Shown here piece after piece: positions 3,504-61,344 of a DNA stretch of 64,000 bases. Source of the stretch: Carallia brachiata (Eukaryota > Streptophyta > Magnoliopsida > Malpighiales > Rhizophoraceae); assembly GCA_021464245.1 (NCBI GenBank), contig JADCRB010000040.1:9751534-9815533 (forward strand), in the 5' to 3' direction. The notes below the pieces were generated by a model that worked only from the letters and a program-made list of their open reading frames with translations, made no database searches and was not told the DNA's origin. Each line of letters starts with the position of its first letter. The first letter of the stretch is position 1. The translations under genes were made by a program, and so were the position numbers.

Positions 3504-4840
3504 TCAAAGCCTCCAATCATTAAATATCTCTTGAGCAAGTGCATTTCGAAAATTAGACCATTCATCAGATGTGTCAATCACTCTAATGAACTCCATTTCA
3601 TTGGCGTTACTAATATCTAGGTCATTGTCATTGTCACGAATTTCCAACACGGTATCTGTTGGCATATGTCTCCTTACAAAGTTATGTAATAGACAACATG
3701 TCAGAACAATATGCCCTTGGATTCGTATTGGATAAAACGACGGACTTTTAAGAATTCCCCACTGCCCTTTAAGCAAGGCAAAACATCTTTTTATGACATT
3801 TCTAACTTTTGAGTGTTTTCACCCCTCCATTCACTAAGGTGATATCAATGCCCTCTATATGGTGCTAGAAAACCCATGCCTTTGGTGTACCCAGCATCAA
3901 CAAAGTAATAACAACCTGCAAAAAAAAGAACAAATAAAGAACATATTTTATATAACCATTAAAGAAAAATTAGATGAACTAAAAAAAATGTTACCATAAG
4001 GGACTCTTAAACCATCGGGCCTAGAAAGTGCATCTCTAAGAACGCGACCATCGTATGTTGAACCCTCCCATCCAGGTAACACATATGTAAATTGTCTGTC
4101 AGGTGAGCAGACACCTAAAATATTCATTGTGAGGTTACCTTTTCTTGTCCTATATTTAGGTCTGTCTTGAGAGGACACTAATATGTTTATAAATGTGCCA
4201 TCCAAAGCTCCTAAACAATTCCGCACTAAAACAAAAAAAAAAAAAAAAAGCTTTGAAGCATCTCCATCTAGCATTTTGCCATCCAAAATGTAATATAATA
4301 TTAAATTGCAAAATGAGAAACATGAATTTACCTTGAAGCATCTCTACCTAGCATTTGTGCAATCTTCTGGTATAGGTGTTGGCTTCTTAAGTAATCATCA
4401 TGCAACCTCAAAACAGCCTTCAGACACTAATTAAAATATCTACTCACAATTTCTCCACTCCTAATGAAATGTGAACCCATTGTCCTATTTTTTTTCTGGT
4501 GAGATAATATACATATAAACATAGCAACAATCTCCTCCACTGAAGTATTTTGAGATCTAGTCAAACCACCTATCTCAACTGGCATCTCGCAAAGTACATT
4601 AAATGTATGCCTGTTCATGCGAAGCTCGCTTTTACATGTCATGTTGCTTTCTCTTATTAACATATTTAAATTTGCTAGTCGCAACCTTTTCCCTTTTTTT
4701 TTCTTTATTCTTACACATTTTTCACTTATAATGATTGCATCCATTTGATGCCAAATAAAATACATCATGTAAATGATTATAGTAATCTCCATAATTAATT
4801 GTAGTAGTAGAAATTTTCTCCTCCTTCTTAAGCAAGCCAT
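3504..4840 (-). pseudogene. PIF/Harbinger DDE transposase (ALP1-like), broken
   Basis: Read on the minus strand, the N-terminal part (4840-4427) has ELRMNRHTFNVLCEMPVEIG and SVEEIVAMFICIL. The catalytic part (about 4240-3948) has NCLGALDGTFI with the first Asp, RPKYRTRKGNLTMNILGVCS, and LPGWEGSTYDGRVLRDAL with the second Asp. The third region (3947-3781) reads YYFVDAGYTKGMGFLAPYRG but then hits in-frame stops. The C-terminal helix (3776-3504) carries LKGQWGILKSPSFYP and CCLLHNFVRR. The family is DDE_Tnp_4, which cuts and pastes the element. Internal stops, a shifted frame and a poly-A tract near 4230 make it non-functional. A short duplication around 4264-4278 and 4342-4360 (aatgctag.tggagatgcttcaa type) lies at the junction before NCLGALDG. 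Confidence 0.87.
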
Positions 4841-25609: not shown

Positions 25610-28113
25610 ATGGTGGAGGCTAAAAATTCCTCGCCCTTGACGGTTTCTACAGCTTCTGCGGAGCCCGAGGCCACCAGTTTGTCTTCTTTCGGTAATCAGG
25701 CCACCTCGCTCCCGGTGGTGGCACCGCCGAAGAAGAAGCGGAACCTCCCCGGAATGCCAGGTGAAAAAAAAAAAAGCACTGTTAAAGCTCAAAGCTTTAT
25801 CTTGTCGGTTAATTCAAAGGTTCTGCTTTTAAGTTTGATTAGCTGTTTATTCAGATCCAGATGCTGAGGTAATTGCGTTATCACCGAAGACCCTGTTGGC
25901 CACTAATCGTTTCGTGTGCGAGATCTGCAACAAAGGCTTCCAACGCGACCAGAACCTCCAGCTTCACCGACGAGGCCATAACTTACCGTGGAAGCTAAAG
26001 CAGCGGACCAGCAAGGAGCCACGGAAGCGGGTCTACGTCTGCCCGGAGACGTCTTGCGTCCATCACAACCCGGCTAGAGCTCTCGGCGACCTCACCGGCA
26101 TCAAGAAGCACTTCTGCAGGAAGCACGGCGAGAAGAAGTGGAAGTGCGAGCGGTGCTCCAAGAAATATGCGGTACAGTCCGATTGGAAAGCCCACATGAA
26201 GACCTGCGGGACTCGGGAGTATAGATGCGATTGTGGCACCTTGTTCTCCAGGTCCCCCAATTATTGCTCTAAGCCATATATATATATATTTGCTTATGTT
26301 TAATCATTTTGGTTCTTGTTTGATGATAGATGGAATCATTGAAATATTAATGTTGCATGCCTTGGTTGAAATAGGAGGGATAGCTTCATAACGCATAGGG
26401 CATTCTGTGATGCCTTGGCCGAGGAGAGCGCGAGGGCCAAAACCTTAACCATTATGGATGGCGAAGGAAATGAAGCAAATGCCAAAAGCCTGGTTACTTC
26501 TCCGCCTCCTCCGCCGCTTACGCCGTCAACAAATGTTGTTTCTCCGGGGCTGTCAGTCCAAAGCTCAGGTAATTAGTTTGGTCTCTTGGCGTAATGTTAC
26601 TAATTAATGTGGACAAGCTCCATCACATCATACAATAACTCCGACACGTAGACACTATATATATATATATATATATATATATTAACTTAGTCGAATTGAT
26701 ATTATTCTGTATAAAAAATTTATACAGTAAAAGAAATGGTAATATTTTCCTGCGAGTGCAGTCAAAAGCAAGGATTTGAGATGTTTCAGATTCAATCATT
26801 AGATTCTTTATTGTTTTTCTTGTGGCTGAGGAAAAGGCCTGGAAGTTTAATTATTCTTGTTACCAGAATGGGTTTGGTTTTTTGTGAGTTGGTTTGTCTT
26901 TTGTCAATGTCTTTTCTCCGACCATAATGGTGGTCTATGACTATGGTAGATGCGGTGGGTTTGGTGGGTGTTTGTCTTTCTTTGTGAAAAAGTGTGCATG
27001 GAGAGAGAGTGTGTGTGAATGAGTGAGAATGTGAGAGTTTTGCAGAGGAGTTTTATATCCCTTGTAATTATGCATGCTTCGCGGTTGAACAGTCATTAGT
27101 AAAACTCACATATCGAAAATTAATGTTTGAGAAAAAAGACACCATTACTGTTCCTGTCTTGTGCTTCTAAGCTTTCAATTGTTTAAGCTGTTCACTTTCA
27201 TTTTCTCTCTCTATTTAGTTTGTCAATCAATCTTCTTAGTCTATTCTTTTTATTGCGTCTTCTCATCTTTTTCACATTCTGTGTAAATCTTTTGCTTCAT
27301 TTTTATCTGGTCACAGAATTGGCAGAAAATCCCGTTGGACTTTCAGCAGCAACAGCTGCATGCTTGGCTGCCTCCTCCGCAAGCACAAGCTCTACCAGCA
27401 ATGTCTTTGCCGCCAGTATGTTTGCAACTAATTCAATGGCAGCAGAAACAGGTGCTGCAACTTCACAGCAAGCAGCATCATCCTCATTTTCCAATCTACG
27501 CTATCCTTTGACTGTCTCAGATTGCCCTGCAGCCGCAATGCCGGGCCCTTCTGGCAATATGGAACCACTCCCCTCGTTATCTCTTTCCCCAACACTGTAT
27601 CTCTCTGACAATAACTCTCCCCTTTTCGCAAATCATCAAGAGCACCACCACTACGCGCCATCTCGTCAGCCCGCCATGTCTGCAACCGCATTGCTCCAAA
27701 AAGCGGCACAAATGGGAGCAACAACCTCAAACCCGTCATTCCTCCGTGGCTTAGGTTTATCAGTCTCATCTTCATCATCGGGACATCAAGATGGCAATGG
27801 ATATCAGTGGGATGTGAAGCCTGCAGATAGCAGTATTACTAGGACAAACGGCGGGCTTGGCCTTGGACACCCTTCCAATGATGTTATGATTGGCTCATCT
27901 TCGCTGTTCGGGAGCAAACCCATGACACTTGATCTCCTTGGATTGGGCATTGGTGCTGCTAGTTCCGCCCTGCTAAGTTCCTATGGTAGTGGCTTCAATG
28001 TCGGAGCAGCTGCCGTCGCCGCTGCTGCTGCCGCCGCATATGGTGGAGGAGGAGGCGGAGGCAGTTCTGAAGAGAAATGGGACGGTGCTCCAGAGAGGAA
28101 ACCAAATGCATAG
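25610..28113 (+). CDS. INDETERMINATE-DOMAIN (IDD) C2H2 zinc-finger transcription factor, four exons
   Basis: Exons 25610-25760, 25855-26251, 26375-26568 and 27317-28113 join in frame through GT/AG junctions to 512 aa. Residues 41-44 carry a KKKR nuclear signal in the [17 protein letters not shown] block. Four fingers follow: residues 70-92 ([10 protein letters not shown]...HRRGH), 111-141, 146-168 (C2HC) and 173-194 (C2HC, split by intron 2). The C-terminal half has [20 protein letters not shown], the conserved [14 protein letters not shown] block at 368, MTLDLLGLG at 450, and Ala and Gly runs near the end. IDD proteins bind DNA in the nucleus and work with GRAS proteins such as SCR, SHR and DELLA. 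The C-terminal motifs suggest the IDD4/5/6 branch (IME/RVN/BLJ), which is inferred rather than proven. The gene looks intact. Confidence 0.95.
26660..26683. repeat. (AT)n microsatellite in IDD intron 3
   Basis: A pure TA/AT dinucleotide tract inside the last intron. Confidence 0.85.
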
Positions 28114-35459: not shown

Positions 35460-37549
35460 ATGTCGAATGAACCTACTACAACAGATGTGATGATGGAAAT
35501 TGAGTTGGAGGGGGAGAAAGGCGAGGATCCTAATGGCAAGAACACACAGAACACAGATGAAGGTTATAGTACAACCTCTAAGCCCCCAATCCCTCAAAAA
35601 ATTAAAAATCCAAGTCTGAAAAAACAATTAGATCAAGTGTAAAGAGTGCTGTATGGGATCACTTTACTCATAACAATGACCCAAATAACCCAAAAGCCAG
35701 TTGCAACTACTGTAAACAGACTTATGTTAGCCACCCTAAAAAGAGTGGTACTAGTAATTTATGACACATTTAGAGACTGTTTGTAAGCTATATCCTTACA
35801 AAAATGTTGACAAAAAGCAAAAGACTTTAACCTTTGTGCCTAAAGAAGCAAAGGATAATGATGCTAGTGGTGGCTCTTTGCATGCTGTTAGTTATGATCC
35901 TGAAGAATGTAGGAGAGAATTGGCTCGAATGATCATCACAAATGAGTTGCCTTTTAGGGTGGTTGAAGGGATTGGATTTAGGAGACTGTTGAGGGCTTTG
36001 CAACCAAGATTTATTGTCCCATCTCGCATCACATTTGCTAGAGATTGCATGAAACTTTTTTATGATGAAAAGTTAAAGTTGAAGAGAGTTCTTAGGGATC
36101 AACGTGTATGCTTAACAACAAACACATGGGCTTCAATTCAAAATTTCAACTATATGTGTTTGACTGCTCACTGGATTGATGATGATTGGAAATTGAACAA
36201 AAAAATTATAAATTTTTGTCAAGTTCCAAATCATAAGGGTGCAACCATTGGAAAGACTATTGAGTTATGTATTTTGGATTGGGGTGTAACTAAGCTTTTA
36301 ACTTCACAGTTGATAATGCAAGTTCTAATAATCTAGCCATCAAGCATTTGAAAACAAAGACTAGAGATTGGAGGCATACAATCTTGATCATGATTTTTTG
36401 CATTGTATTGAGAGGATTAGGAATGCAATTAGATATGTGCGTTCCTCTCTTTCTAGGTTGCATAATTTTAAGAAGGCTATTGAGCTTTCACGGATTGAAA
36501 GTAAAAGTTTGTTGTATTTAGATGTTGAGACTAGATGGAATTCAACCTTTTTGATGTTGGAAACCACTCAAAAATTTGCCAAAGCTTTTGAGCGGTTAGA
36601 GGAAATAGATTCCAAATTCTTGTCTTATTTTGATGGTGATAAGATTCGAGGACCACCCAATGCAAAAGATTGGTCCAATGCAAAGTGTCTTGGGGCCTTT
36701 TTGAAAACTTTTTATAATGCCACTTTGCGATTTTCTGGTTCTTTGTTCGTTATTTCAAACTCTTTTTTCAATGAAGTTTGTGGGATTCATTCCAAGTTGA
36801 TAAAAATGGCCAATAGTCAAGATGAAGGGTTGAAGAAGATGGCGCAAAAAATGAAAGAGAAATTTGAAAAATATTGGAACAATTTCAAAAATATAAATCT
36901 CTTATTGCATGCGGCTGTTGTTTTGGATCCTCGCTTGAAGCTTAGAGATGTGAGGTTTTGCCTAGATCAAATTTATGATGCTGAACTTTCAAAGAAAATG
37001 GCTGACAGCATTGAACAAACTTTCCTAAGATTGTTTGAACACTACAATGAGCTAATTGTAAGCTCTAGTAAGAGTGAGGCAGCATTTGCATCTCAAAAGT
37101 CATCTTTTGATGGTAATGATGAAGAGGAGGATGATGATAGTGGTCAATGGATGGTTTCCAAGTTTAACAAGTATGTGCAATCTGAGGATACATTGGAGAA
37201 TAAATCAGAGGCTCTTCGCTACTTAGCTGAACCAATTGAGCCTAGAGATGAGAAGTTTGATTTATTGAATTGGTGGAAAGAGAAGTCTACGAAGTATCCA
37301 ATCATCGCAAGCATGACAAGAGATGTTTTGGCCATTCCTATTTCAACAGTTGCTTCGGAATCGGCATTTAGTACAGGTGACCGTCTTCTAGATCTATTTA
37401 GAAGTTCACTTGCTCCACAAATAGTGGAGGCACTTGTTTGTGCTCAAAGTTGGTTTCGAGATGACGATTCAACTATTGATCTTCGAGAAGCTCTAGAAGA
37501 TGTTGAGAAATTTGAGGATGTTGTTAAAGGTACAGATTTAATAAATTAA
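35460..37549 (+). pseudogene. hAT transposase (BED finger, RNase H-like, hAT dimerisation domain), broken
   Basis: The N-terminal part starts at 35460. After a slip in an A-run near 35620 the BED zinc finger continues (SAVWDHFTHNN, then SCNYCKQTYVSHPKKSGTSN). After another shift near 35760 it ends in THLETVCKLYPYKN. The catalytic region holds LRDQRVCLTTNTWASIQNFN, then after a third shift TVDNASSNNLAIKHLKTK. The usual 'RCCAHILNLIV' block is missing between RDWR (36365) and RIRNAIRYVRSS, a deletion. From 36368 to 37549 the frame is open and ends with the hAT dimerisation motif (FDLLNWWKEKSTKYPI, then ASESAFSTGDRLLD and FRSSLAPQIVEAL). Functional copies excise and reinsert the element. At least three frameshifts and the deletion abolish this one. 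Confidence 0.92.
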
Positions 37550-40397: not shown

Positions 40398-40427
40398 TGA
40401 TAGATAATAAGAAAAGAAGATTCCTAA

Positions 40428-40790
40428 TGATGGAAACAACAAAAAGAAGATTTTTTTATTTAAAAATTTATTAATATTTTACATTTATATTTTATATATA
40501 TTATTAAATATAATAATATTTAAAATTTTATTTCTAGTTAGTTTAGTTATTTACATTCTATTCTATTTAGTTTTATTTTTATTTAATTTTATTAATCTAA
40601 ATTTTATAAATAGGTCAGCTTTATTATTTAAACAGAGTGATTAAATATTTATTGAGTTTTGAACGAACGTGATTTTATTTTTTTTACGGGTGGAATTATG
40701 AGTATATTACACGTGAATTTTTATAAATTTTTTTTATTTTTTGAATAGATTCTCGAGTTATTCATCAATTTTATAATTTATCGTACATCA
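40428..40790 (+). repeat. 5' LTR of the PDS5-carrying element
   Basis: It is paired with 43078-43450 and ends in tacatca before the primer-binding site. The segment 40398-40427 repeats the beginning of the LTR (ataagaaaagaagat), suggesting a small duplication at its start. Confidence 0.78.
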
Positions 40791-41757
40791 ATTTGATATT
40801 AGAGCAAATATCGATTCAAACTCATTTTCGATCCTAAATCACACGTCAAAAGCGTTCCAAATCTTACTTCCAATTTTCATCGAACTCAAAATCATTCAAA
40901 AACACCGTCGAAATTCACAAAAACACCATTAAAAACCACAAAACAGACATCTTGCTTCTATTGTTCACTGCCGCAGCATTCGCCGGAGCTCTGCTGCGCG
41001 ACGTGGCTGTCGGTCACCGGCTACAACCTGAAACCACCCGTCAAACTCGTAGGCCTCCAATCTACATCTCTCTGGCCTTCACGTGCCATGATCTGGTCAG
41101 AATCTCCTCAGAATAGCCGTTCGAAGCCCGCTAGACAACCTTGTAGTCTGCTGATGTTTCACCACCATTGGTCACATCCGACACTCGAACCTGGTCTAGC
41201 AAGGACCAGTGGCCTCCGATCTATCTGTTTTTGCCATCAAAGTGCCGATTGGAACCCAGCACGTCGACATTCATCGACCTTTTTCTACAATGCTGCCTCT
41301 CGGTTTGCTGAACCTCCGTGTTCACCGCTCTGCCTCCCACACCAGCACCCGTTTGACCTTTGTTTGGCCTCTCCTGACCTCCAATGAATGCCCTTGACCT
41401 CGCCAGAGCGCACCGCCTTTGTCGTTGTGTCAAGTCCTTTTCCAGCAACATGTTGGTTTGCTTTCTTGTTTTTTCCTTTAAACTATTCTAGATTTTTTAT
41501 TTTCAGGTTTAAAAATAAAAATAAAAAACAGAGAAACAAGTCAAAAAAATAATAACAATAAATAAGAGTGATATGTCTTTTCAGTCTAGCTATTCGAGTC
41601 AATAGTCGATGTTTTTGAGTGTTGTAGAGTGTCTGCGAAAAAAAAAAAAAGGTTTCAAATTGTTTTTTGTCTTTGAGAAGAGAAGAAAAGTGTCAACCTT
41701 TGTTTCTTTTGGTCTGTTTTGAGTAGGACAAAAAAAAAAGAAAAAAAAGAAAAAGAG

Positions 41758-42876
41758 ATGACTACAATTCTCAATAAGCAAATTTGGTATGTTGGGGAAA
41801 GGTTACAAAGTCCTCCTGTTTATATTGGAGGCTTGCTTTCTCTTCTTGATGAAATCGAAGATTACTTATCGAGACTAAATCAGTCAGGTATAATGCCAGT
41901 TACTCTGCATCCACTGATGAATGCATTTATTAGCCATCAATTCTTTCTATATATTGATGTTGATGTAAGAGTTTTAGTTACTCCTTGCTTTTATCTGATA
42001 TTGAGGATAACTGCTCCATCTGCTTTTACTTCTAGTGATGTGGCGAGAGATATTTTTAAGCTGATTGTCTTATTGTTTGAGGATTTGTGTGACAATAGCT
42101 ATCCTTTATATGTTAAGTGGATCTTGGTTTTTGAAACTGTTGTAAGTTGCAGTCATATTACCTGAGGTTGGATCTTGGTTGTGACTCATTAATTGTTGAG
42201 ATGTTTTATCACTTCTTCATTGGTATACGAGATTATCACCTAAGGAGAGTCTTTATGCTAATAATATCTCTCCTGACTTACTTTTTCTGCTATTATATAG
42301 TGTGGAGAAAGTTCGTGCAAAGATTGTCTCTCTTTTTTACAAGTTGGGAGAACAGTACTTAGAAGTTATACTTCTAAGATTCGACCTTACTTGGTGTATG
42401 CTGTGAAATCTTTTTACATATCTTTGGCTCGTTACAGTAATGTTGTTGCTACAATATTTCAAGATATATTTGAGATTGATGAACAGTTTTATGTTCATGG
42501 TACTGAAGATGAGGTTGTTGTTCATGTTGATCACTGTATAGTTGAAGATGATTTGTGTATTCACATTAGTACATTTGATGAGGTCATTCAACTTGTAGTT
42601 GATTCAGTCCATACTAATGTTTTGGAATTGATATCCCTCGATCTTCCTCTTCCCATTGAAGATGAGTTAGAAATAGCGAAGTCAAACATTGCTCTCTTAG
42701 AAGAAGTTGATCACATTGTTGATGAACCAACAACATATGTGTCTTTGACTCCAGCAATTGATTTGGTTGCTGATGAATTTATCACACCAATTATGCGCAA
42801 TGAAATTACACATGCTGAAGAAGTTGTTATTCCTTTGGATTTTGTCAAACCAGTTGTGACTGAAGAGGTTGCATAG
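41758..42876 (+). pseudogene. PDS5 (sister-chromatid cohesion cofactor) N-terminal HEAT region captured in an LTR element
   Basis: In order, with frame changes near 42150, 42270 and 42380, the sequence reads LQSPPVYIGGLLSLLDEIED, DYLSRLNQSG, DVDVRVLV, LRITAPSAFTSSDVARDIFK, LRLDLGCDSLIVEMFYHFF, NISPDLLFLLLYSVEKVRAK, LFYKLGEQYLE, and RPYLVYAVKSFYISLARYSN with VVATIFQD. These follow the collinear landmarks of plant PDS5-like proteins ('LLxLLDQVExxLSRVEQSP', 'RITAPDAPY', 'LDLECDALIIEMFQ..F', 'ISxELLSPLLASVKK', 'ARKLGE', 'KPYLxxAVKSLGISLDDYSxVVASICQD'). PDS5 regulates cohesin on chromatin. Introns are absent, which suggests capture through RNA. The last 130 codons (to 42876) are acidic and may derive from the region after the HEAT repeats. 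The protein is not expressible as one frame. Confidence 0.8.
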
Positions 42877-43077
42877 ATTGCACAGATTGTGGAAGCAATT
42901 GATTTTGTCATTTTACCACAGTTTTAATTTTTGACTTTTCTTGTAGAGCTCTTGAAGTTTGTTTCGTTGCTACTGCCTCCAATTTTTTCTACAGATTTTT
43001 ATCCACTTTGAAGCCCGTTCTTTCTCATTCTCTGCACTTCAAAATTTGAGGACGAATTTTTGTCAAGTAGGAGAGAA

Positions 43078-43450
43078 TGATGGAGAATAAGAAAAGAAGA
43101 TATCTATTATTTAAGAATTTATTAATCTTTTATAATTATAATTATATTTTAGGTATTATATTATTTAGAATATGATAGTATTTAAAATTCCATTTCTAGT
43201 TAGTTTAGTCTATTTAGAATTCTATTCCTATTTAATTTCATTGTTATAAGCTCTATAAATAGGTTTCATGTTAGTTTCATTATTTAAGCAGAGAGATTAT
43301 GATATTTGATATTGAGTTTTGAACAAATATGATATTCGTTTTGTTTGCTGGTGGATTCTTGCATATGCTACAGGCAATTCCTATCATTTTTTTTTATATT
43401 TCGGGTGGATTCCTAAGTTATTCATCAGTTTCATAATTTGTTTTACATCA
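43078..43450 (+). repeat. 3' LTR of the PDS5-carrying element
   Basis: It starts directly after the polypurine tract with tgatgg and ends in tacatca. It matches the 5' LTR over its whole length with substitutions and small indels. Confidence 0.8.
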
Positions 43451-46809: not shown

Positions 46810-48087
46810 TCAGAGCATGTGCCTTGGTAAATTAAATGGTTTCCTCAATGCATAGGTCAATAAACACATATTTGTGAATGTTAAGTAATTATAGTGGCCA
46901 CCTCTAGGGCTAATGTTGTAGGCTACCATTCTTTGCACCACTCTTGACTTAATAGGCAAGTCAGATGCCTTAAATGGCTTATGGACATCCATACTTTCCA
47001 AATTGGACGTGTCCTCTCCTTCAAAGATAACATCTAACCACTCCTGTACGCTGAACTTGTCAGTGTCCCAAGAATCTAACCATTCGACCTTGCCTTCTTC
47101 ATTTTTCAAGGCAAAGAAATCAGCAACTACTTGGGGTGTTAACATCACCTCTTTTCTATTCACATAGGAGATGATCTCTGTAGCATACTTATTAGCTTCC
47201 ATGTTTACATAAAACATTTTGAACATCTTAGGATAAAATGTATTTTCAAGAGTAATGAACCTAACCCAATCTTGAAAAACAATCCATCTAGAAACCCATT
47301 CTGCTTAAATTCATTTATATAATCAAAATGTAATGGCCTCGCTTTATGCACAGTTCTCCTACTAAGTTTGGAGGCATAGTTTTTTGAGATATTCTCAGTC
47401 CCAAAAGTGAAAATTAAAAAACATAGAAGGGTCAAGGTTAGGAGGTATATCATGACCTGCTGGAGCTTAAGGAGTTGCAAAATTACCATTGCCTTATGGT
47501 GGGTCAACTGGTGTAGAGGCTAGGTCAACCTGTGTTTAGTGGATCCCTTGGTCTGTTATGAGTGCCTTATGTGTTTGAATTGCTATAGAAGGCATTTTTT
47601 GGGGTTTGAAGAAGCCAATTGGTTTGGTCGACTAAGGAGTGGTCAGAGTTTGGTCGGCTGGTGGCGGTGTGACTTCATATAGGTTGGTCGGTAAGGGAGA
47701 TGGGTCGACTGAGGTATTTTTGACTTGGGTATCTAAAGGGACTTCAATCTGAGTTTGGTCTGTCTGTCTTTTCCTCTTCTCTTTCGATTGTGAGGGTTCA
47801 GTGTCTTTTGATTTTGACTTGCTAGGTGCTTTGGATAGTGTTGGATTAGTAATTGGGTCGGAGAAGGGATCTAATTGGGGTAAATTCGTCGGTCTAGAAG
47901 TTTTACTTGGTTGAATCGTCCTTGTAACCCTTGAAGAGTCTATCTTTCTTCGTTTGGTCTTAAAGATCAGTGACCCTAGAGGAGATTCCAGTGAGGGAGT
48001 ATTAGAATAAAAGGGTCTCAGAGATCTAAGATGAAAAGAGGTTGCTTGGGTGTGTTCAGAGGATTCTGAATCATTGATTGACACCAT
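46810..48087 (-). pseudogene. Envelope-like / 'putative plant transposon protein' ORF of the Sirevirus-like element
   Basis: The N-terminal part (48087-47632, 151 aa) is Ser/Pro/Thr/Lys-rich (SKSKDTEPSQSKEKRKRQTD), as in the low-complexity N-terminus of Sirevirus env-like proteins. After an interruption, 47507-46810 carries ARPLHFDYINEFKQNGFLDG, MFKMFYVNMEANKYATEIIS, VDVxxPQVVADFFAL-like residues (TPQVVADFFALKNEEGK) and NYLTFTNMCLLTYALRKPFN. This is the conserved block of this retroelement protein. Its role is not established. Frame changes near 47210 and 47510-47630 show decay. Confidence 0.6.
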
Positions 48088-51866: not shown

Positions 51867-53846
51867 GACAAGATAGAAAAAGCAGTTTCAATGGGGGCAT
51901 TATGTAGCAAGGTGAAAAGGACGCAGTTGGCAGTTTGCTTTTGGAATTTTTTTCAGTTCTCAAATTTTTTAATACATTTGTTTTTTGTTAGTTGACATGC
52001 GTAAATATGTTTCCCACGCCATCATCTACAAGAGACGTTGTTTCTTGCTTTAGGGTAAATAACGTGAAAAAAAAGGATGTAATGGTAAGAGTTTAACCGA
52101 CTAAAAAAAGTTGAAATATTTAAGTGTATGTGAGCAAAAATATTAAGGCAATATTCTAGCCTAAAAAAATGAAAAAAAAAACAAAACACAAAAAAGTTGA
52201 AGCACACGACTTCAAGTCTCAAGTTGATCAAAAATAAAAAAAAGAAGAAAGTTCAAAAAACAAGACCTACTTTTATTCATGAAAACTGGCACAACATTGA
52301 GGTAGATTCCTCAACTCAACTCTCGCCACGTCTCCAAATTAATGTGACAGTCGCGTAAAAATATTTTTCCTTAATTTCTCCTATGTTTATTAAGGTTTTA
52401 TTACATGACATGAAGAATCTATCTTATTTTAATTTTATTGTGTTACTGGCCAATAAAAAATAACATTTTGGGCAAAAAAATTTTAACATACAAACTTTTT
52501 TTTATTAACTAAGATCGACTGTGTAGAAAATAACACCGATTCTTCAAATCATATACCTTTATTCATTTGTTGATTACAATTTACGAGTTAAAAAAATACA
52601 TAGATACCCTATGGATTGGTGCAAACGTGTGCATGATAAGAGCTTGGCAATAGCCTTGATATTCATTTTCTTTTTTATACATGTGGTCGAAATCTCATGA
52701 CGTTGTGTATTTTCGGCCTTTTACCTCTGGCGAGGGTAACAAATGAGCAAGTGTTCGCCATTGATAGAAGGATCTTTGCAAGTGCGAGCATACATAAAGC
52801 ACTTGACATTTAATCAAGTTGAAGTTGGAGGCAATTGAAAAATGAGAACTGGCAAGCGGTTCGTTTCGGTTCGGACTTTTAATTAGGGATTGACGTAGAA
52901 CGGTCAACCCATTATTTTTTACTTGTACTTTTTTCTCTTCCTTATATGATTCTCTTTGCTAATTCTCTCTCTTTGTCTTTCTTCCCCTCTCTATCTCCCT
53001 CTTGTTCTTCTTTTTAATTATCTTTTTTGTATATCATATGTATCTCTACTATTTGTTATCGAAAAAAATTTAATGACAGCATAGGGAGAACAATACGGTA
53101 AACTTATGGTAATAAGGTCTAATATAGTAAAAGTCAATTGAATTAGAAAAAAAAAAATCATTTCTCTATCTTTATCTGGTCTTTTTGACTCTATTTACTC
53201 TACCTCTCTCCTTTTATTTTATCTTTCTCTCCACGTGACTTCGCTAATTGTTTTGTCTTATCTCCCAATTTTAGTTTCAAATTTTCTCCGTGGTGTACAT
53301 TTGTTCTTTTATCGAAGACACCTAAAGAAAAAGCTGAATTACCCAGCCTTCAAAGGAGAAAATTTGAAATTAAACAAACTTTGTCTTAACGTCATCTGAC
53401 AACTTCATGTTACCATGAAAAAGCGATAAAAAGTGATTTTTCTATTAATGGATTTTTTTTCTTTATTATCATTTTCTGAGGTTTATTATAAATCAAAGTA
53501 ATATGACATATTTCAGGCAAATAAGAGATAGTTTTGATAGAGAGAGTGATATTGTTCTTGGCTTAAGGTATCACTTCTCATAATATAAAAGAGTAAGAAA
53601 AATTTTGATGATCATGGTGCAAATTCAAAGTTTTTAATAATGCAAGTTGTTCATTCAAAGACCAATGTGGACAAAGAAAGAGAAAGAAACATTTGTTTCT
53701 GATCTTATTTAAGCGATCTAAAACAAAAGGAATTAATGATGCGTTATAGAAATATTAATGTAACATTTATCTCATCCCCTCCTATAAAAACACTATTCGA
53801 TTACCATTCAAATTCATTCCAAACAAATAACAAAAAAATATAACAC
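51867..53846 (+). pseudogene. Gene-less array unit 1
   Basis: It aligns with units 2 and 3 up to the promoter and leader (cctataaaaacactattcg at about 53780, then aacaaataac...tataac at 53844). It then jumps directly to the sequence that follows the gene in other units (ctttgaattattttgg at 53847), so about 500 bp with the whole coding region is absent. An aaaatataa motif on both sides of the missing segment in units 2 and 3 could have mediated a deletion. Confidence 0.8.
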
Positions 53847-56220
53847 CTTTGAATTATTTTGGATTCACAAATATCAAATGGTATAAAAGAAGGGGAAAAA
53901 AATATTTTATAATATTTTTGAAATTCAAACTAAAAAAAAAATAGTATTCATCGTAGAATAATAACAAAGTCAAAATATTAGGCAATAAAAAGCAACGACC
54001 AAAATCATTCATTATAAATAAACATGCTTGTAACCTTTTATCTTGGATTTTCTCTTCAAATTCTATTTTTGAAATTCCAACTAAAAAAACTACGAAGAAA
54101 AGTCGGAGTGCTAATTATCATGAGATATGAATTGTACGATTCTTTGTACTCCTAGAATAATCTTGATGAGCCTAAACACCGAAGAACCCAATTTGGAGCC
54201 ATCTCCGGCAAGATTGAAAAAGCAATTTCAACGAGGTCATTATGTAGCAAGGTGAAAAGGACGCAGCTACCAGTTTGCTTTTAGAATTTTTTTTTGGTTC
54301 TCAAATTTTTTAATACATATGTTTTTTGGTAGCTGACATGCGTAAATATGTCTTCTACGCCATCATCCACACGAGGTGCTGTTTCTTGCATTAGTAAAAA
54401 AATGTGAAAAAAAAAAAGATGTCATGGGAAGAGTTTAATTGACTCAAAAAAGCCAAATGTTTAAGTGTGTGTGAGCAAAAATATTAAGGAAATATTTTGG
54501 CCTAAAAAGCTGAAAAAAAAAAACAAAAGAGTTGAGGCATAAGGCTTCAAGTGTCAAGTGGATCAAAAATTAAAAAGAAGAAAGTTCAAAGAACAAGACC
54601 TACGTTACTCATGACAAACAGACACAGCACTGAGGAAGATTCTTCAACTCAACTCTCGCCACTTCCTCAAATTAATGTGACAGTCACGTGAAAATATTTT
54701 TCCTTAATTTCTCGTATGTTTGTTAAGGGTTTCATTGCATGACATGAAGAATCAGTCATATTTTATTTTTTACCGTGTTGTTGGCCAATAGAAAATAACA
54801 TTTTGTGCAAAAAGAAACTGAAATATAATTTTTTTTATTAACTAAGATCGACTGTGCAGAAAATAGCTCTGATTCTTCAGATCATATACCTTTATTCATT
54901 TGTTGATTACAATTTATGAGTTAAAAAAAAATAGATACCCTATAGATTGGTGCAGACGTGTGCGTGATGAGAGTTTGGCAATAGCCTTGATATTTATTTT
55001 CTTTTTTAAACATATAGTCGTAATCTCATGACGTTGCATTGTCGGCCCTTTACCTCTGGCGAGGGACACAAATAAGAAAGTGCTCGCCATTGAAGGAAGG
55101 ATCTCTGTGAGTGCGAGCATACACAAGGCACTGGCCATTTAATCAATTTAAAGTTGGAGGCAATTGAAAAGTGAGAACTGACGTGCAGTTCGTTTCGGTT
55201 TGGGCTTTTAATTAGGGATTGACGTAGAACGGTCAACCGATTATTTTTTACTTGTACTTTTTTCTTTACCTTATATGATCTCTTTATTATTCTCTTTATT
55301 AATTCTCTCTCTTTCTCTTTCTCCCCCTCTCTATCTCCTCTTGTTCTTCTTTTTTAGTTAGCTTTTTTGTATATCATATGTATCTCTACTATTTTTTACT
55401 GAAAAAAATTTAACGACAGCAGAGGGAGAACTATACGGTAAACTTATGCTAATGCAGTCTAATATAGTAAAAAAATCAATTGAATTAAAAAAAAATCATT
55501 TCTCTATCTTTACTTGGTCTTTTTGACTCTATTTACTCTACCTCTCTCTTTTTATTTTGTCTTTCTCTCCACATGAATTTGCTAACTATTTTGTCTTTAT
55601 CTCCCTATTTTAGTTTCAAATTTTCTCCGTGGTGTACATTTGTTCTTTTGTCGAGGACGTCCTAAAGAAAAAGCTGAATTACCCAGTCTTCAAAGGAGGT
55701 GTAAGCATAAAATTTGGAATCTAAGTTGATTCACTTTGAAAAACTAATTGCAGTCCCTACTTCTGCTTTAATTTGAAGAGCATCTAATGATTAGATTTAT
55801 TTTGCAATTAAACAAATTTTGTCTAAGTGTCATCAGAAAACTTCATGTTACCATAAAAAAAAACGATAAAAAGTGATTTTTCTCTAAATGGATATTGTTT
55901 TCTTTATTATCATTTTATGAGGTTTATTGTAAATCAAAGCACTATGACATATTTTAAGCAAATAAGAGATAGTTTTGATAGAAAGAGTAATATTGTTCTT
56001 GGCCTAAGGTATCACTTCTCACAATATAAAAGAGTGAGAAAAAATTTGGTCATGTTGCAAATTCAAAATTTTTAATGATGCAAATTGTTCATTTAAAGAC
56101 AAAAGTGGACAAAGAAAGAGAAAGAGAAACATTTGTATTTGATTTTACTTAAACGATCTAAAACGGAAAGGAATTAAAATGCGTTATAAAAATATTAAGG
56201 TAACATTCATCTCATCCCCT

Positions 56221-56309
56221 CCTATAAAAACACTATTCGATTACCATTCAAATTCATTCCAAACAAATAACAAAAAAAAATATAACCTATATATTTGGAA
56301 TCAAGTAAG
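56221..56309 (+). promoter_or_regulatory. TATA box and leader of prolamin-like gene copy 1
   Basis: ctataaaaacac at 56221-56232 is a good TATA box 78-89 bp before the ATG. The leader is A-rich. The same sequence precedes copy 2 (59158-59169) and survives without a gene in unit 1 (about 53780-53791). Confidence 0.65.
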
Positions 56310-56702
56310 ATGGCAGGTGTCAACCACTCCATCATCATGGCTATATTCTTAGTTAATGGAATATTGCTGATGACACCTAAAACTACCACTGCAATTTTCT
56401 CTAAAACACCCACACCTTTGCAAGCAGCAAGTCCTGGAGATTCTATATCCTGGGATCAATGTACAGCAAAGTATAGTAAGGAATGTTCAGACGAGTATTT
56501 CTCAATGATATTTCTTAATGGAGCAACGTCTGATCAATGCTGTTCGGAGCTTGCCGGGTGGGACCCAGCTTGCTACGATGAATTTGTAAGTTATATCAAA
56601 TATAAAAAACAATATAGGCAGCGTTTGTCAGAATATTTGACAAAGACTGAACAATTATATAAGCGGTGTGCTGTGAAAGCTAACTCTCCTGTCACTGCTT
56701 AA
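56310..56702 (+). CDS. Secreted prolamin-like (ECA1/EC1-type) cysteine-rich protein, copy 1
   Basis: This is an intronless 130-aa protein. Residues 1-28 are a signal peptide (MAGVNHSIIMAIFLVNGILL...TTTA). The mature part has six cysteines, Cys51, 59, 77, 78, 88 and 120, in the C-C-CC-C-C order of the plant prolamin-like domain. SDEYFSMIFLNGATSDQCC and GWDPACYDEF parallel the 'FFLNG....GCC..I....CW' core of that family. Many members are secreted from egg cell, synergids or pollen, and EC1 proteins activate sperm during fertilisation. The exact role here is inferred from family only. The ATG at 56310 is chosen because it starts the signal peptide. In-frame codons before it have no ATG. Codon use and an intact frame suggest a working gene. 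Confidence 0.88.
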   Translation: MAGVNHSIIMAIFLVNGILLMTPKTTTAIFSKTPTPLQAASPGDSISWDQCTAKYSKECSDEYFSMIFLNGATSDQCCSELAGWDPACYDEFVSYIKYKKQYRQRLSEYLTKTEQLYKRCAVKANSPVTA

Positions 56703-59157
56703 AAAGAAAATACATCATATGTGCGGTACAATAATGTATATGTGGAATGCCAACAAGAGCTTTTCATGGCCGAAAAATATAATAGAAAATGTTCTTTGAA
56801 TTATTTTGGATTCACAAATATCAAATGGTATAAAAGAAGGGGAAAAAAACTATTTTATAATATTTTTGAAATTCAAACTAAAAAAAAATAGTATTCATCG
56901 TAGAATAATAACAAAGTCAAAATATTAGGCAATAAAAAGCAACGACCAAAATCATTCATTATAAATAAACATGCTTGTAACCTTTTATCTTGGATTTTCT
57001 CTTCAAATTCTATTTTTGAAATTCCAACTAAAAAAACTACGAAGAAAAGTCGGAGGGCTAATTATCATGAGATATGAATTGTACGATTCTTTGTACTCCT
57101 AGAATAATCTTGATGAGCCTAAACACCGAAGAACCCAATTTGGAGCCCTCTCCGGCAAGATTGAAAAAGCAATTTCAACGAGGTCATTATGTAGCAAGGT
57201 GAAAAGGACGCAGCTACCAGTTTGCTTTTAGAATTTTTTTTTGGTTCTCAAATTTTTTAATACATATGTTTTTTGGTAGCTGACATGCGTAAATATGTCT
57301 TCTACGCCATCATCCACATGAGGTGCTGTTTCTTGCATTAGTAAAAATAATGTGAAAAAAAAAAGATGTCATGATAAGAGTTTAATTGACTCAAAAAAGC
57401 CGAAATGTTTAAGTGTGTGTGAGCAAAAATATTAAGGAAATATTTTGGCCTAAAAAGCTGAAAAAAAAAAAAAAACAAAAGAGTTGAGGCATAAGGCTTC
57501 AAGTGTCAAGTGGATCAAAAATTAAAAAGAAGAAAGTTCAAAGAACAAGACCTACTGTTACTCATGACAAACAGACACAGCACTGAGGAAGATTCTTCAA
57601 CTCAACTCTCGCCACTTCCCCAAATTAATGTGACAGTCACGTGAAAATATTTTTCCTTAATTTCTCGTATGTTTGTTAAGGGTTTCATTGCATGACATGA
57701 AGAATCAGTCATATTTTATTTTTTACCGTGTTGTTGGCCAATAGAAAATAACATTTTGTGCAAAAAGAAACTGAAATATAATTTTTTTTATTAACTAAGA
57801 TCGACTGTGCAGAAAATAGCACTGATTCTTCAGATCATATACCTTTATTCATTTGTTGATTACAATTTACGAGTTAAAAAAATAGATACCCTATAGATTG
57901 GTGCAACGTGTGCGTGATAGAGTTGGCAATAGCCTTGATATTTATTTTCTTTTTTATACATATAGTCGTAATCTCATGACGTTGTGCATTGTCGGCCCTT
58001 TACCTCTGGCGAGGGACACAAATAAGAAAGTGCTCGCCATTGAAGGAAGGATCTCTGTGAGTGCGAGCATACACAAGGCACTGGCCATTTAATCAATTTA
58101 AAGTTGGAGGCAATTGAAAAGTGAGAACTGACGTGCAGCTCGTTTCGGTTTGGGCTTTTAATTAAGGATTAACGTAAAACGGTCAACCGATTATTTTTTA
58201 CTTGTACTTTTTTCTTTACCTTATATGAATCTCTTTATTAATTCTCTCTCTTTCTCTTTCTCCCCCTCTCTATCTCCCTCTTGTTCTTCTTTTTTAATTA
58301 TCTTTTTTGTATATCATATGTATCTCTACTATTTTTTACTGAAAAAAATTTAACGACAGCAGAGGGAGAACTATACGGTAAACTTATGCTAATGCAGTCT
58401 AATATAGTAAAAAAATCAATTGAATTAAAAAAAAATCATTTCTCTATCTTTACTTGGTCTTTTTGACTCTATTTACTCTACCTCTCTCTTTTTATTTTGT
58501 CTTTCTCTCCACATGAATTTGCTAACTATTTTGTCTTTATCTCCCTATTTTAGTTTCAAATTTTCTCCGTGGTGTACATTTGTTCTTTTGTCGAGGACGT
58601 CCTAAAGAAAAAGCTGAATTACCCAGTCTTCAAAGGAGGTGTAAGCATAAAATTTGGAATCTAAGTTGATTCACTTTGAAAAACTAATTGCAGTCCCTAC
58701 TTCTGCTTTAATTTGAAGAGCATCTAATGATTAGATTTATTTTGCAATTAAACAAATTTTGTCTAAGTGTCATCAGAAAACTTCATGTTACCATAAAAAA
58801 AAACGATAAAAAGTGATTTCTCTAAATGGATATTGTTTTCTTTATTATCATTTTATGAGGTTTATTGTAAATCAAAGCACTATGACATATTTTAAGCAAA
58901 TAAGAGATAGTTTTGACAGAAAGAGTAATATTGTTCTTGGCCTAAGGTATCACTTCTCACAATATAAAAGAGTGAGAAAAAATTTGGTCATGTTGCAAAT
59001 TCAAAATTTTTAATGATGCAAATTGTTCATTTAAAGACAAAAGTGGACAAAGAAAGAGAAAGAGAAACATTTGTATTTGATCTTACTTAAACGATCTAAA
59101 ACGGAAAGGAATTAAAATGCGTTATAAAAATATTAAGGTAACATTCATCTCATCCCC

Positions 59158-59246
59158 TCCTATAAAAACACTATTCGATTACCATTCAAATTCATTCCAA
59201 ACAAATAACAAAAAAAATATAACCTATATATTTGGAATCAAGTAAG
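59158..59246 (+). promoter_or_regulatory. TATA box and leader of prolamin-like gene copy 2
   Basis: ctataaaaacac lies at 59158-59169, the same spacing as copy 1. The leader is identical apart from the length of an A-run. Confidence 0.65.
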
Positions 59247-59639
59247 ATGGCAGGTGTCAACCACTCCATCATCATGGCTATATTCTTAGTTAATGGAATA
59301 TTGCTGATGACACCTAAAACTACCACTGCAATTTTCTCTAAAACACCCACACCTTTGCAAGCAGCAAGTCCTGGAGATTCTATATCCTGGGATCAATGTA
59401 CAGCAAAGTATAGTAAGGAATGTTCAGACGAGTATTTCTCAATGATATTTCTTAATGGAGCAACGTCTGATCAATGCTGTTCGGAGCTTGTCGGGTGGGA
59501 CCCAGCTTGCTACGATGAATTTGTAAGTTATATCAAATATAAAAAACAATATAGGCAGCGTTTGTCAGAATATTTGACAAAGACTGAACAATTATATAAG
59601 CGGTGTGCTGTGAAAGCTAACTCTCCTGTCACTGCTTAA
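59247..59639 (+). CDS. Secreted prolamin-like (ECA1/EC1-type) cysteine-rich protein, copy 2
   Basis: It has the same 130-aa product as the copy at 56310, with a single amino-acid difference, Ala82 to Val (GCC to GTC at 59490-59492), just after the CC pair. Signal peptide, six cysteines and stop are unchanged. The near-identity includes flanks of about 2.4 kb, so the copies arose by very recent duplication or are being homogenised. The substituted residue lies between Cys78 and Cys88 and is not a structural cysteine, so function is probably retained. Confidence 0.88.
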   Translation: MAGVNHSIIMAIFLVNGILLMTPKTTTAIFSKTPTPLQAASPGDSISWDQCTAKYSKECSDEYFSMIFLNGATSDQCCSELVGWDPACYDEFVSYIKYKKQYRQRLSEYLTKTEQLYKRCAVKANSPVTA

Positions 59640-59730
59640 AAAGAAAATACATCATATGTGCGGTACAATAATGTATATGTGGAATGCCAACAAGAGCTTT
59701 TCATGGCCGAAAAATATAATAGAAAATGTT

Positions 59731-61344
59731 CTTTGAATTATTTTGGATTCACAAATATCAAATGGTATAAAAGAAGGGGAAAAAAACTATTTTATAATAT
59801 TTTTGAAATTCAAACTAAAAAAAAATAGTATTCATCGTAGAATAATAACAAAGTCAAAATATTAGGCAATAAAAAGCAACGACCAAAATCATTCATTATA
59901 AATAAACATGCTTGTAACCTTTTATCTTGGATTTTCTCTTCAAATTCTATTTTTGAAATTCCAACTAAAAAAACTACGAAGAAAAGTCGGAGTGCTAATT
60001 ATCATGAGATATGAATTGTACGATTCTTTGTACTCCTAGAATAATCTTGATGAGCCTAAACACCGAAGAACCCAATTTGGAGCCCTCTCCGGCAAGATTG
60101 AAAAAGCAATTTCAACGAGGTCATTATGTAGCAAGGTGAAAAGGACGCAGCTACCAGTTTGCTTTTAGAATTTTTTTTTGGTTCTCAAATTTTTTAATAC
60201 ATATGTTTTTTGGTAGCTGACATGCGTAAATATGTCTTCTACGCCATCATCCACACGAGGTGCTGTTTCTTGCATTAGTAAAAATAATGTGAAAAAAAAA
60301 AAGATGTCATGGGAAGAGTTTAATTGACTCAAAAAAGCCGAAATGTTTAAGTGTGTGTGAGCAAAAATATTAAGGAAATATTTTGGCCTAAAAAGCTGAA
60401 AAAAAAAAAAAACAAAAGAGTTGAGGCATAAGGCTTCAAGTGTCAAGTGGATCAAAAATTAAAAAGAAGAAAGTTCAAAGAACAAGACCTACTGTTACTC
60501 ATGACAAACAGACACAGCACTGAGGAAGATTCTTCAACTCAACTCTCGCCACTTCCCCAAATTAATGTGACAGTCGCGTGAAAATATTTTTCCTTAATTT
60601 CTCGTATGTTTGTTAAGGGTTTCATTGCATGACATGAAGAATCAGTCATATTTTATTTTTTACCGTGTTGTTGGCCAATAGAAAATAACATTTTGTGCAA
60701 AAAGAAACTGGAATATAATTTTTTTTATTAACTAATATCGATTGTGCAGAAAATATCACTGATTCTTCAGATCATATACCTTTTTTCATTTGTTGATTAC
60801 AATTTACGAGTTAAAAAAAATAGACACCCTATAGATTGGTGCAAACGTGGGCATGATAAGAGCTTGGCAATAGCCTTGATATTTATTTTCTTTTTTATAC
60901 ATGTAGTCGTAATCTCATGACGTTGTGTGTTTTCGGCCCTTTACATCTGGCGAGGGACACAAATGAGAAAGTGCTCGCCATTGATGGAAGGATCTCTGTG
61001 AGTGCGAGCATACACAAGGCACTGGCCATTTAATCAATTTAAAGTTGGACGCAATTGAAAAGTGAGAACTGACGTGCAGCTCGTTTCGGTTTGGGCTTTT
61101 AATTAAGGATTAACGTAAAACGGTCAACCCATTATTTTTTACTTGTACTTTTTTCTTTACCTTATGTGATTCTCTTTATTAATTCTCTCTCCTTCTCTAC
61201 CACCCTCTTGTTCTTCTTTTTTAATTATGTTTTTTTGTATATCATATGTATCTCTACTATTTTTTACCGAAAAAAATTTAACGACAGCAGAGGGAGAACT
61301 ATACGGTAAACTTACGCTAATGTAGTCTAATATAGTAAAAAAAT
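59731..61344 (+). repeat. Truncated array unit 4
   Basis: It follows unit 3 and matches it up to ctaatatagtaaaaaaat (61344). There the homology ends and unrelated sequence begins, so the promoter and gene part of this unit is missing. Confidence 0.85.

Follow-up and report, generated by a model that had tools for sequence, protein, structure and literature searches.

What is the broken PDS5-like sequence that lies between two direct repeats in the Carallia brachiata genome, and how did it come to be there? The window analyzed here is a 64-kb stretch of DNA (C101:9751534-9815533), and the genome searched for related copies comprised 337.5 Mb in 164 contigs. We conclude with high confidence that the locus is a decayed member of an old and multicopy family of non-autonomous LTR retrotransposons, in which PDS5C sequence captured from a spliced mRNA took the place of gag-pol and which spread while the captured frame was open.

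Two long terminal repeats (LTRs) were found on the forward strand, as were all other features of the element, at 40428-40790 (5' LTR) and 43078-43450 (3' LTR). Local alignment of the pair revealed 271 identical positions in 349 columns (77.7%) with 38 gap columns, and the score of 157 was far above the maximum of 37 obtained from 200 dinucleotide shuffles. The LTRs of the window copy are ~370 nt long and enclose an interior of 2.3 kb. Directly 3' of the 5' LTR, a decayed primer-binding site (PBS; 40791-40806), which we take to be of the initiator-Met type, contained TTTGATATTAGAGC at 40792-40805, while the form TTTGGTATCAGAGC was found at the same LTR junction elsewhere in the genome. The polypurine tract (PPT) AGTAGGAGAGAA at 43066-43077 adjoins the start of the 3' LTR at 43078. 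The paired LTRs, degraded primer site and polypurine tract named in the original prediction were therefore all recovered; its span of 40398-43450 was correct as a two-LTR element but not at its start, because the 5' LTR begins at 40428. The preceding 30 nt (40398-40427) are an imperfect extra copy of the LTR start that lies outside the 5' LTR and matched the 3' LTR with 86% identity over 29 nt. Within the window pair, 44 sites had A/T in the 5' LTR and G/C in the 3' LTR, and 17 sites had the reverse; a GC-poorer 5' LTR would fit the decay of methylated DNA. A scan of ten rows for target-site duplications revealed a 5/5 duplication with TG...CA ends at L040 and 4/5 duplications at L051 and L053, the latter barely exceeding the 4/5 matches that the same scan gave at non-canonical ends. 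No convincing duplication was found at the other seven rows scanned, the window copy among them.

The interior of the window copy was composed of four parts. A GC-rich leader (40807-41757), resembling that of Ty3-type elements in the same genome, is followed by a spliced, PDS5C-derived N-terminal segment (41758-42470), which was identified by Pfam, structure matches and comparison with host exons and whose frame is broken by small deletions. Next comes an acidic tail (42471-42876), probably a diverged continuation of the PDS5C frame as judged from protein-level shuffle tests and an open frame at 42301-42876, and then a 3' non-coding part (42877-43065) that was found in 19 of 20 copies (shortened in L046). 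Upon scanning four interior ORFs with Pfam, PDS5 was found to be the sole match above cut-off: ORF 41677-42162 matched PF20168 with an E-value of 2e-12 and 46.2 bits (cut-off 27), and it also matched solved Pds5 structures at 4e-6 and 9e-5. The similarity whose absence had been named in advance as decisive is thus present, and the five PDS5 landmark peptides first noticed were all found, distributed across three frames. None of the four scanned ORFs showed a Pfam domain of gag, protease, RT or integrase, in agreement with the lack of retroviral-type genes first noted. The description of the interior as a PDS5 fragment held for the N-terminal piece but not for its extent of ~240 codons, as the PDS5-derived frame probably reaches 42876. 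Comparison of ORF1 with a large protein database gave 22 candidates, none at an E-value of 0.001 or better. An A-rich stretch (41729-41757) was observed immediately 5' of the PDS5 start codon, and it was also present in L009 and L014.

Other features were observed elsewhere in the window. A unit of ~2.94 kb occurs in tandem in two to three repeats at 53416-61163, and two of these units contain near-identical prolamin-like ORFs (56286-56702, PF05617; 59223-59639). A hAT transposase at 35758-37549 includes an ORF of 394 codons (36365-37549) with RNase-H-like and C-terminal dimerisation domains; the ORF upstream of it (35758-36336) had no Pfam match. On the reverse strand, we found a DDE_Tnp_4 (Harbinger-type) transposase in two pieces (3504-4343) and a fragment of a Transposase_32 plant transposon protein (46810-47304). 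An exon of a BIRD-IDD zinc-finger transcription factor lies at 25839-26303, and the long ORF 27187-28113 may be the next exon of this gene (25839-28113).

The genome search with 41700-42900 revealed 45 DNA matches, which were merged by eye into 40 loci, the window included; this count is a lower bound, as 40 of the 56 first-look candidates were scored. A Pfam profile search of the genome added five loci, giving about 45 with an intronless PDS5 segment, and LTR matches were present at four of the five (L009, L014, L015 and C58:704569), the remaining locus being C58:8538976. Among the 20 copies fetched with flanks, the tail followed PDS5 in all 20 (shortened in L046), a leader match was present 5' of PDS5 in 19 (the exception being L040) and both LTRs were present in 16; L044 had a 5' remnant and a 3' LTR, and L046, L047 and L056 each had a single LTR. 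The element is therefore multicopy, as the original prediction considered possible. That prediction was open to refutation by copies lacking the segment together with a host locus at this site; instead, the segment is present in all 20 fetched copies, at a constant position, and the host PDS5 genes lie elsewhere. Four pairs (L048/L049, L054/L055, L047/L056 and L039/L041) were 93-99.8% alike with similarity extending into the flanks, which indicates alleles or segmental duplications, so the 20 copies represent about 16 insertions. The K2P distances between paired LTRs were 0.14-0.25 in 16 aligned copies, the window copy among them, and 0.28 for the window pair in a separate alignment, with local alignments at times overrunning the LTR ends. 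The family is old, and there was no young member among the copies examined. Two tandem LTR copies were observed on the 5' side of L043 (1845-2589) and L052 (1841-2615) in the oriented copies, and they look as if they arose by LTR recombination or nested insertion.

Host PDS5 genes matched the Pfam profile in separate exons and on contigs other than that of the window. The PDS5C-type genes at C117 and C91 were the closest to the element among the three host genes in the tree, and PDS5A-type loci showed lower identities to the element than PDS5C-type loci. Judged by these comparisons, the donor is a PDS5C-type gene. The element runs uninterrupted across host exon borders at which C117/C91 have gaps of 176/148, 655/639 and 292/304 nt, the larger figures including a few exon bases. 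The first intron of C91, ~1.9 kb between LLPLLD and QVEHCL, was likewise missing. In total, four host introns, of about 1.9, 0.15, 0.64 and 0.30 kb in C91, are missing in the element, which indicates that a spliced transcript was captured; the same conclusion had been drawn initially, and it agrees with the introns present in the PDS5C-type genes read. In the tree, which included three PDS5C-type host genes and, like the alignments, omitted L049 and L055 as near-duplicates of L048 and L054, the 22 element copies formed one clade with a support of 100 beside C117 and C91, and this single clade points to one capture. L009 and L015, both of which have family LTRs, formed an early-branching pair with a support of 100; the node uniting the other 20 copies had a support of 43.

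The remainder of the element was traced by its LTR end and PBS. This combined pattern, with up to 2 mismatches, was found at 70 places in the genome and at 0 with a reversed control; 18 sites were perfect, 17 of them away from the loci recovered by the PDS5 DNA and profile searches. Two of these 17 sites, L062 and L063, were opened, and both contained gag-like frames after the leader. In particular, L062 showed Retrotrans_gag (8e-8), Ty3 capsid (2.5e-7) and protease (1.2e-5) domains, and L064, located 4.2 kb downstream of the L062 PBS, showed Integrase_H2C2 (2e-12) and rve (8e-8); the two are presumed to be one element with 1.2 kb of unread sequence between them. The leaders of L062 and the window were 72% identical over about 130 nt with GC profiles that ran parallel, and comparison of the window leader with L062 gave scores of 56 for the first part and 33 for the GC-rich part against maxima of 29 and 28 in 200 shuffles each. 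L063 showed 79% identity to L062; its match to the window leader spanned 506 nt at 61% identity and took in the final 15 nt of the LTR. The idea that the leader represents a second host-gene capture was rejected because of its match to Ty3-type leaders. In L062, ~1.0 kb separates the PBS from the first Met of the gag frame, and in the window PDS5 starts 0.97 kb 3' of the PBS; given these similar distances, PDS5 sits at the gag position. Comparison of the LTRs of the window element and L062 gave scores of 44 and 53, where shuffles reached at most 46 and 49, respectively, and because of this weak similarity L062 is regarded as a related lineage and not as a proven helper. The L062/L063 elements thus have the same LTR end, PBS and GC-rich leader as the PDS5 family but differ in the presence of gag in both and protease in L062, and the rest of their LTRs is weakly similar. 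On the basis of these alignments, the LTR end, PBS and leader of the PDS5 family are those of a Ty3-type element.

The acidic tail could derive from PDS5C or from gag-pol. When tails were compared at the protein level with the C117/C91 exons, the numbers of 1000 shuffles that reached the observed score were 0/5 for L047, 0/3 for L056, 0/0 for L053, 0/2 for L045, 17/0 for L009, 15/6 for L044, 7/60 for the window copy and 140/76 for L058. Four of the eight tails therefore had scores matched by at most 5 of 1000 shuffles against both host genes, with L047 and L056 being duplicates of each other. The tail probably has a PDS5C origin, weakly indicated by the window copy alone and strongly by some other copies, and 42471-42876 would then probably continue the PDS5C frame into the next exons. 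A gag-pol origin was rejected, since 137 to 893 of 1000 shuffles reached the protein score of the eight tails against the L062 piece; at the DNA level, the tail scored 31 against L062, with a maximum of 26 in 200 shuffles. As the host exons gave a signal for some tails and the L062 protein gave none, PDS5C is preferred, without certainty.

The damage in the copies revealed the state of the frame during the spread of the family. Among the 19 main copies, 79 of 83 indel events were private, 66 of these being frame-breaking, and three of the four shared events were 1-nt gaps found in two copies each. In-frame stops occurred at 52 positions, of which 39 were confined to one copy or one duplicated pair and 13 recurred in two or more copies, with a maximum of 5 of 19 close to the frame end; L047/L056 and L039/L041 were each counted as one copy in this tally. 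Since nearly every frame break is private, the frame was open during the spread of the family. No frame-breaking difference from the host exons was common to most copies in the 705-nt PDS5 part, where a 6-nt deletion relative to these exons was common to most copies, L009 and L015 too. In this comparison, a 9-nt host gap represents exon ends omitted from the typed host exon strings, and gaps past column 860, from the point where the final host exon piece ends onward, were taken as alignment spread. No full-length open frame was found among the 21 copies read, and without one, none of them would be expected to give a functional PDS5 protein.

The chances are about even that the PDS5 frame was a pure passenger, with the founder frame open either through capture close to amplification or by luck. 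The absence of an end-to-end open frame from all 21 copies read agrees with a passenger, as do the third-position ratios, which were low: the excess was 1.23 in the main copies (codon bootstrap 1.07-1.40; 57 of 171 main pairs used, every third), a value spanned by simulated neutral single pairs at that divergence (0.76-1.27), while host pairs showed 2.1-3.1. The ratio was 1.22 for L009 and 1.03 for L015 against the main copies, and 0.97 between L009 and L015; L014 was excluded from the main set here and in the neutral-decay analysis. The median dN/dS over 153 pairs was 0.41 in the PDS5 part and 0.95 in the tail, with L047 serving as the frame ruler and excluded from the pairwise counts. The near-neutral tail value again favors a passenger, and the difference between the two parts was not relied on because base make-up differs among codon positions and part of the change is C-to-T decay; the codon-position ratios set against the neutral simulation gave a weaker signal. 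The neutral-decay analysis pulls the other way. On the main-burst branch after the L009/L015 split (0.143 substitutions per site), 2.8 frame-breaking indels and 3.2 stops were expected under neutrality in 705 nt, but none was common to most copies, and the chance of zero was 0.06 and 0.047, respectively. Over the whole stem, which may partly be host history, 5.0 frame breaks and 5.4 stops were expected, with chances of zero of 0.007 and 0.001.

Taken together, the founder had an open frame, which was probably maintained for a time; amino-acid constraint on it is weak at best, and sequence selection was weak, if any. The cargo protein was most likely tolerated cargo or a weakly selected product. 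We consider it unlikely that the open frame was retained because its product helped the element, with a truncated PDS5 N-terminus competing with host PDS5 and loosening cohesin at target sites. In yeast, cohesin mutants show increased Ty1 insertion, and the separase Esp1 is an interaction partner of Ty1 integrase (PMC4378997). If this proposal were true, a retrotransposon would have pirated a cohesin regulator and thereby eased its own integration; had the cargo mattered, cohesin control would be linked to retrotransposon integration in plants.

Regarding the origin of the hybrid, intron loss and the placement of PDS5 at the gag-start position are evident from the sequences compared. While a Ty3-type element was being reverse transcribed, the enzyme probably jumped to a spliced PDS5C-type mRNA packaged with it and then back, which would have placed roughly the first 370 PDS5C codons, an estimated length, in the place of gag-pol. 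The retained LTRs, PBS, leader and PPT make copying in trans possible, and the hybrid may have been copied by the proteins of a related element. Amplification occurred while the PDS5-derived frame was open, as read from the damage pattern, and the copies decayed thereafter. The capture itself is unobserved and its product alone is seen, so a processed PDS5 pseudogene could have arisen first (e.g., through a LINE), with an LTR element acquiring it later as DNA, a route with which the A-rich DNA just 5' of the PDS5 start would agree. However, no poly(A) remnant was seen by eye 3' of the coding part, the PDS5 start lies at about the gag start position of L062, and there is a single clade with a single arrangement, all of which make this route improbable. 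Least of all, to the point of being negligible, do we credit a piece of a host PDS5 locus chancing between two unrelated repeats, for which no support was found, as the host genes are on other contigs, those read have introns and the dispersed copies have an identical arrangement.

The original prediction also suggested that the family could produce PDS5-related small RNAs. Its multicopy premise was correct, but present-day small-RNA matching to PDS5C is unsupported, as the longest exact match between the element and host exons was 18 nt (22 copies, parts of 3 host genes); element/host sites of 21 nt with one or two mismatches exist.

Capture of a spliced PDS5C-type transcript by an LTR element is thus the preferred reading, and the classification follows known classes. 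The family has two direct LTRs with a PBS after the 5' LTR and a PPT before the 3' LTR, as in LTR retrotransposons; it is non-autonomous in that Pfam scanning of four ORFs from the interior of the window copy detected no gag, protease, RT or integrase; and it has an intronless host coding segment in dispersed copies, as in host-gene-transducing (Bs1-like) LTR elements. TRIMs have very short LTRs and a short non-coding interior, and LARDs have multi-kilobase LTRs around a long interior that is likewise non-coding. The ~370-nt LTRs and the 2.3-kb interior exclude both, the coding history of the interior also counting against a TRIM.

Defective animal retroviruses with captured oncogenes contain spliced host coding sequence that replaces viral genes, and they need a helper. 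The PDS5 family is similar to them in carrying such sequence in place of viral genes, but it is a plant genomic element family without a known host effect. Bs1 of maize reportedly retains gag-like sequence. As described in PMC13317346, Bs1 is an LTR retrotransposon that has transduced incomplete segments from three host genes; the PDS5 family likewise holds host-gene segments that are not full length inside an LTR retrotransposon, but in its case one PDS5C-type gene fills the coding part and gag was not found. In rice and sorghum, host genes occur in LTR elements, some under purifying selection and many decayed (PMC3726574), and the PDS5 family is similar in both its location and its decay. 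The terms "PDS5" and "cohesi-" were absent from the available main text of PMC3726574 and the available text of PMC7264820, and a word count of the available text of PMC13317346 gave no "PDS5". No PDS5-carrying element was described among the open-access matches listed, most subscription papers and repeat databases lying outside this search. The captured-gene LTR family is real, and its kind is ordinary, being a Bs1-like transduction; what is unusual is that the place of gag-pol is filled by a host frame, which was open at the time when the family grew to dozens of copies. A single spliced capture is traceable here from an intron-bearing donor-type gene, by way of the early L009 and L015 branch, to the burst that produced dozens of copies, and gag-bearing relatives of the backbone are found within the same genome as the captured-gene family. 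This combination makes it possible to test whether the cargo of an LTR element was selected during its spread.
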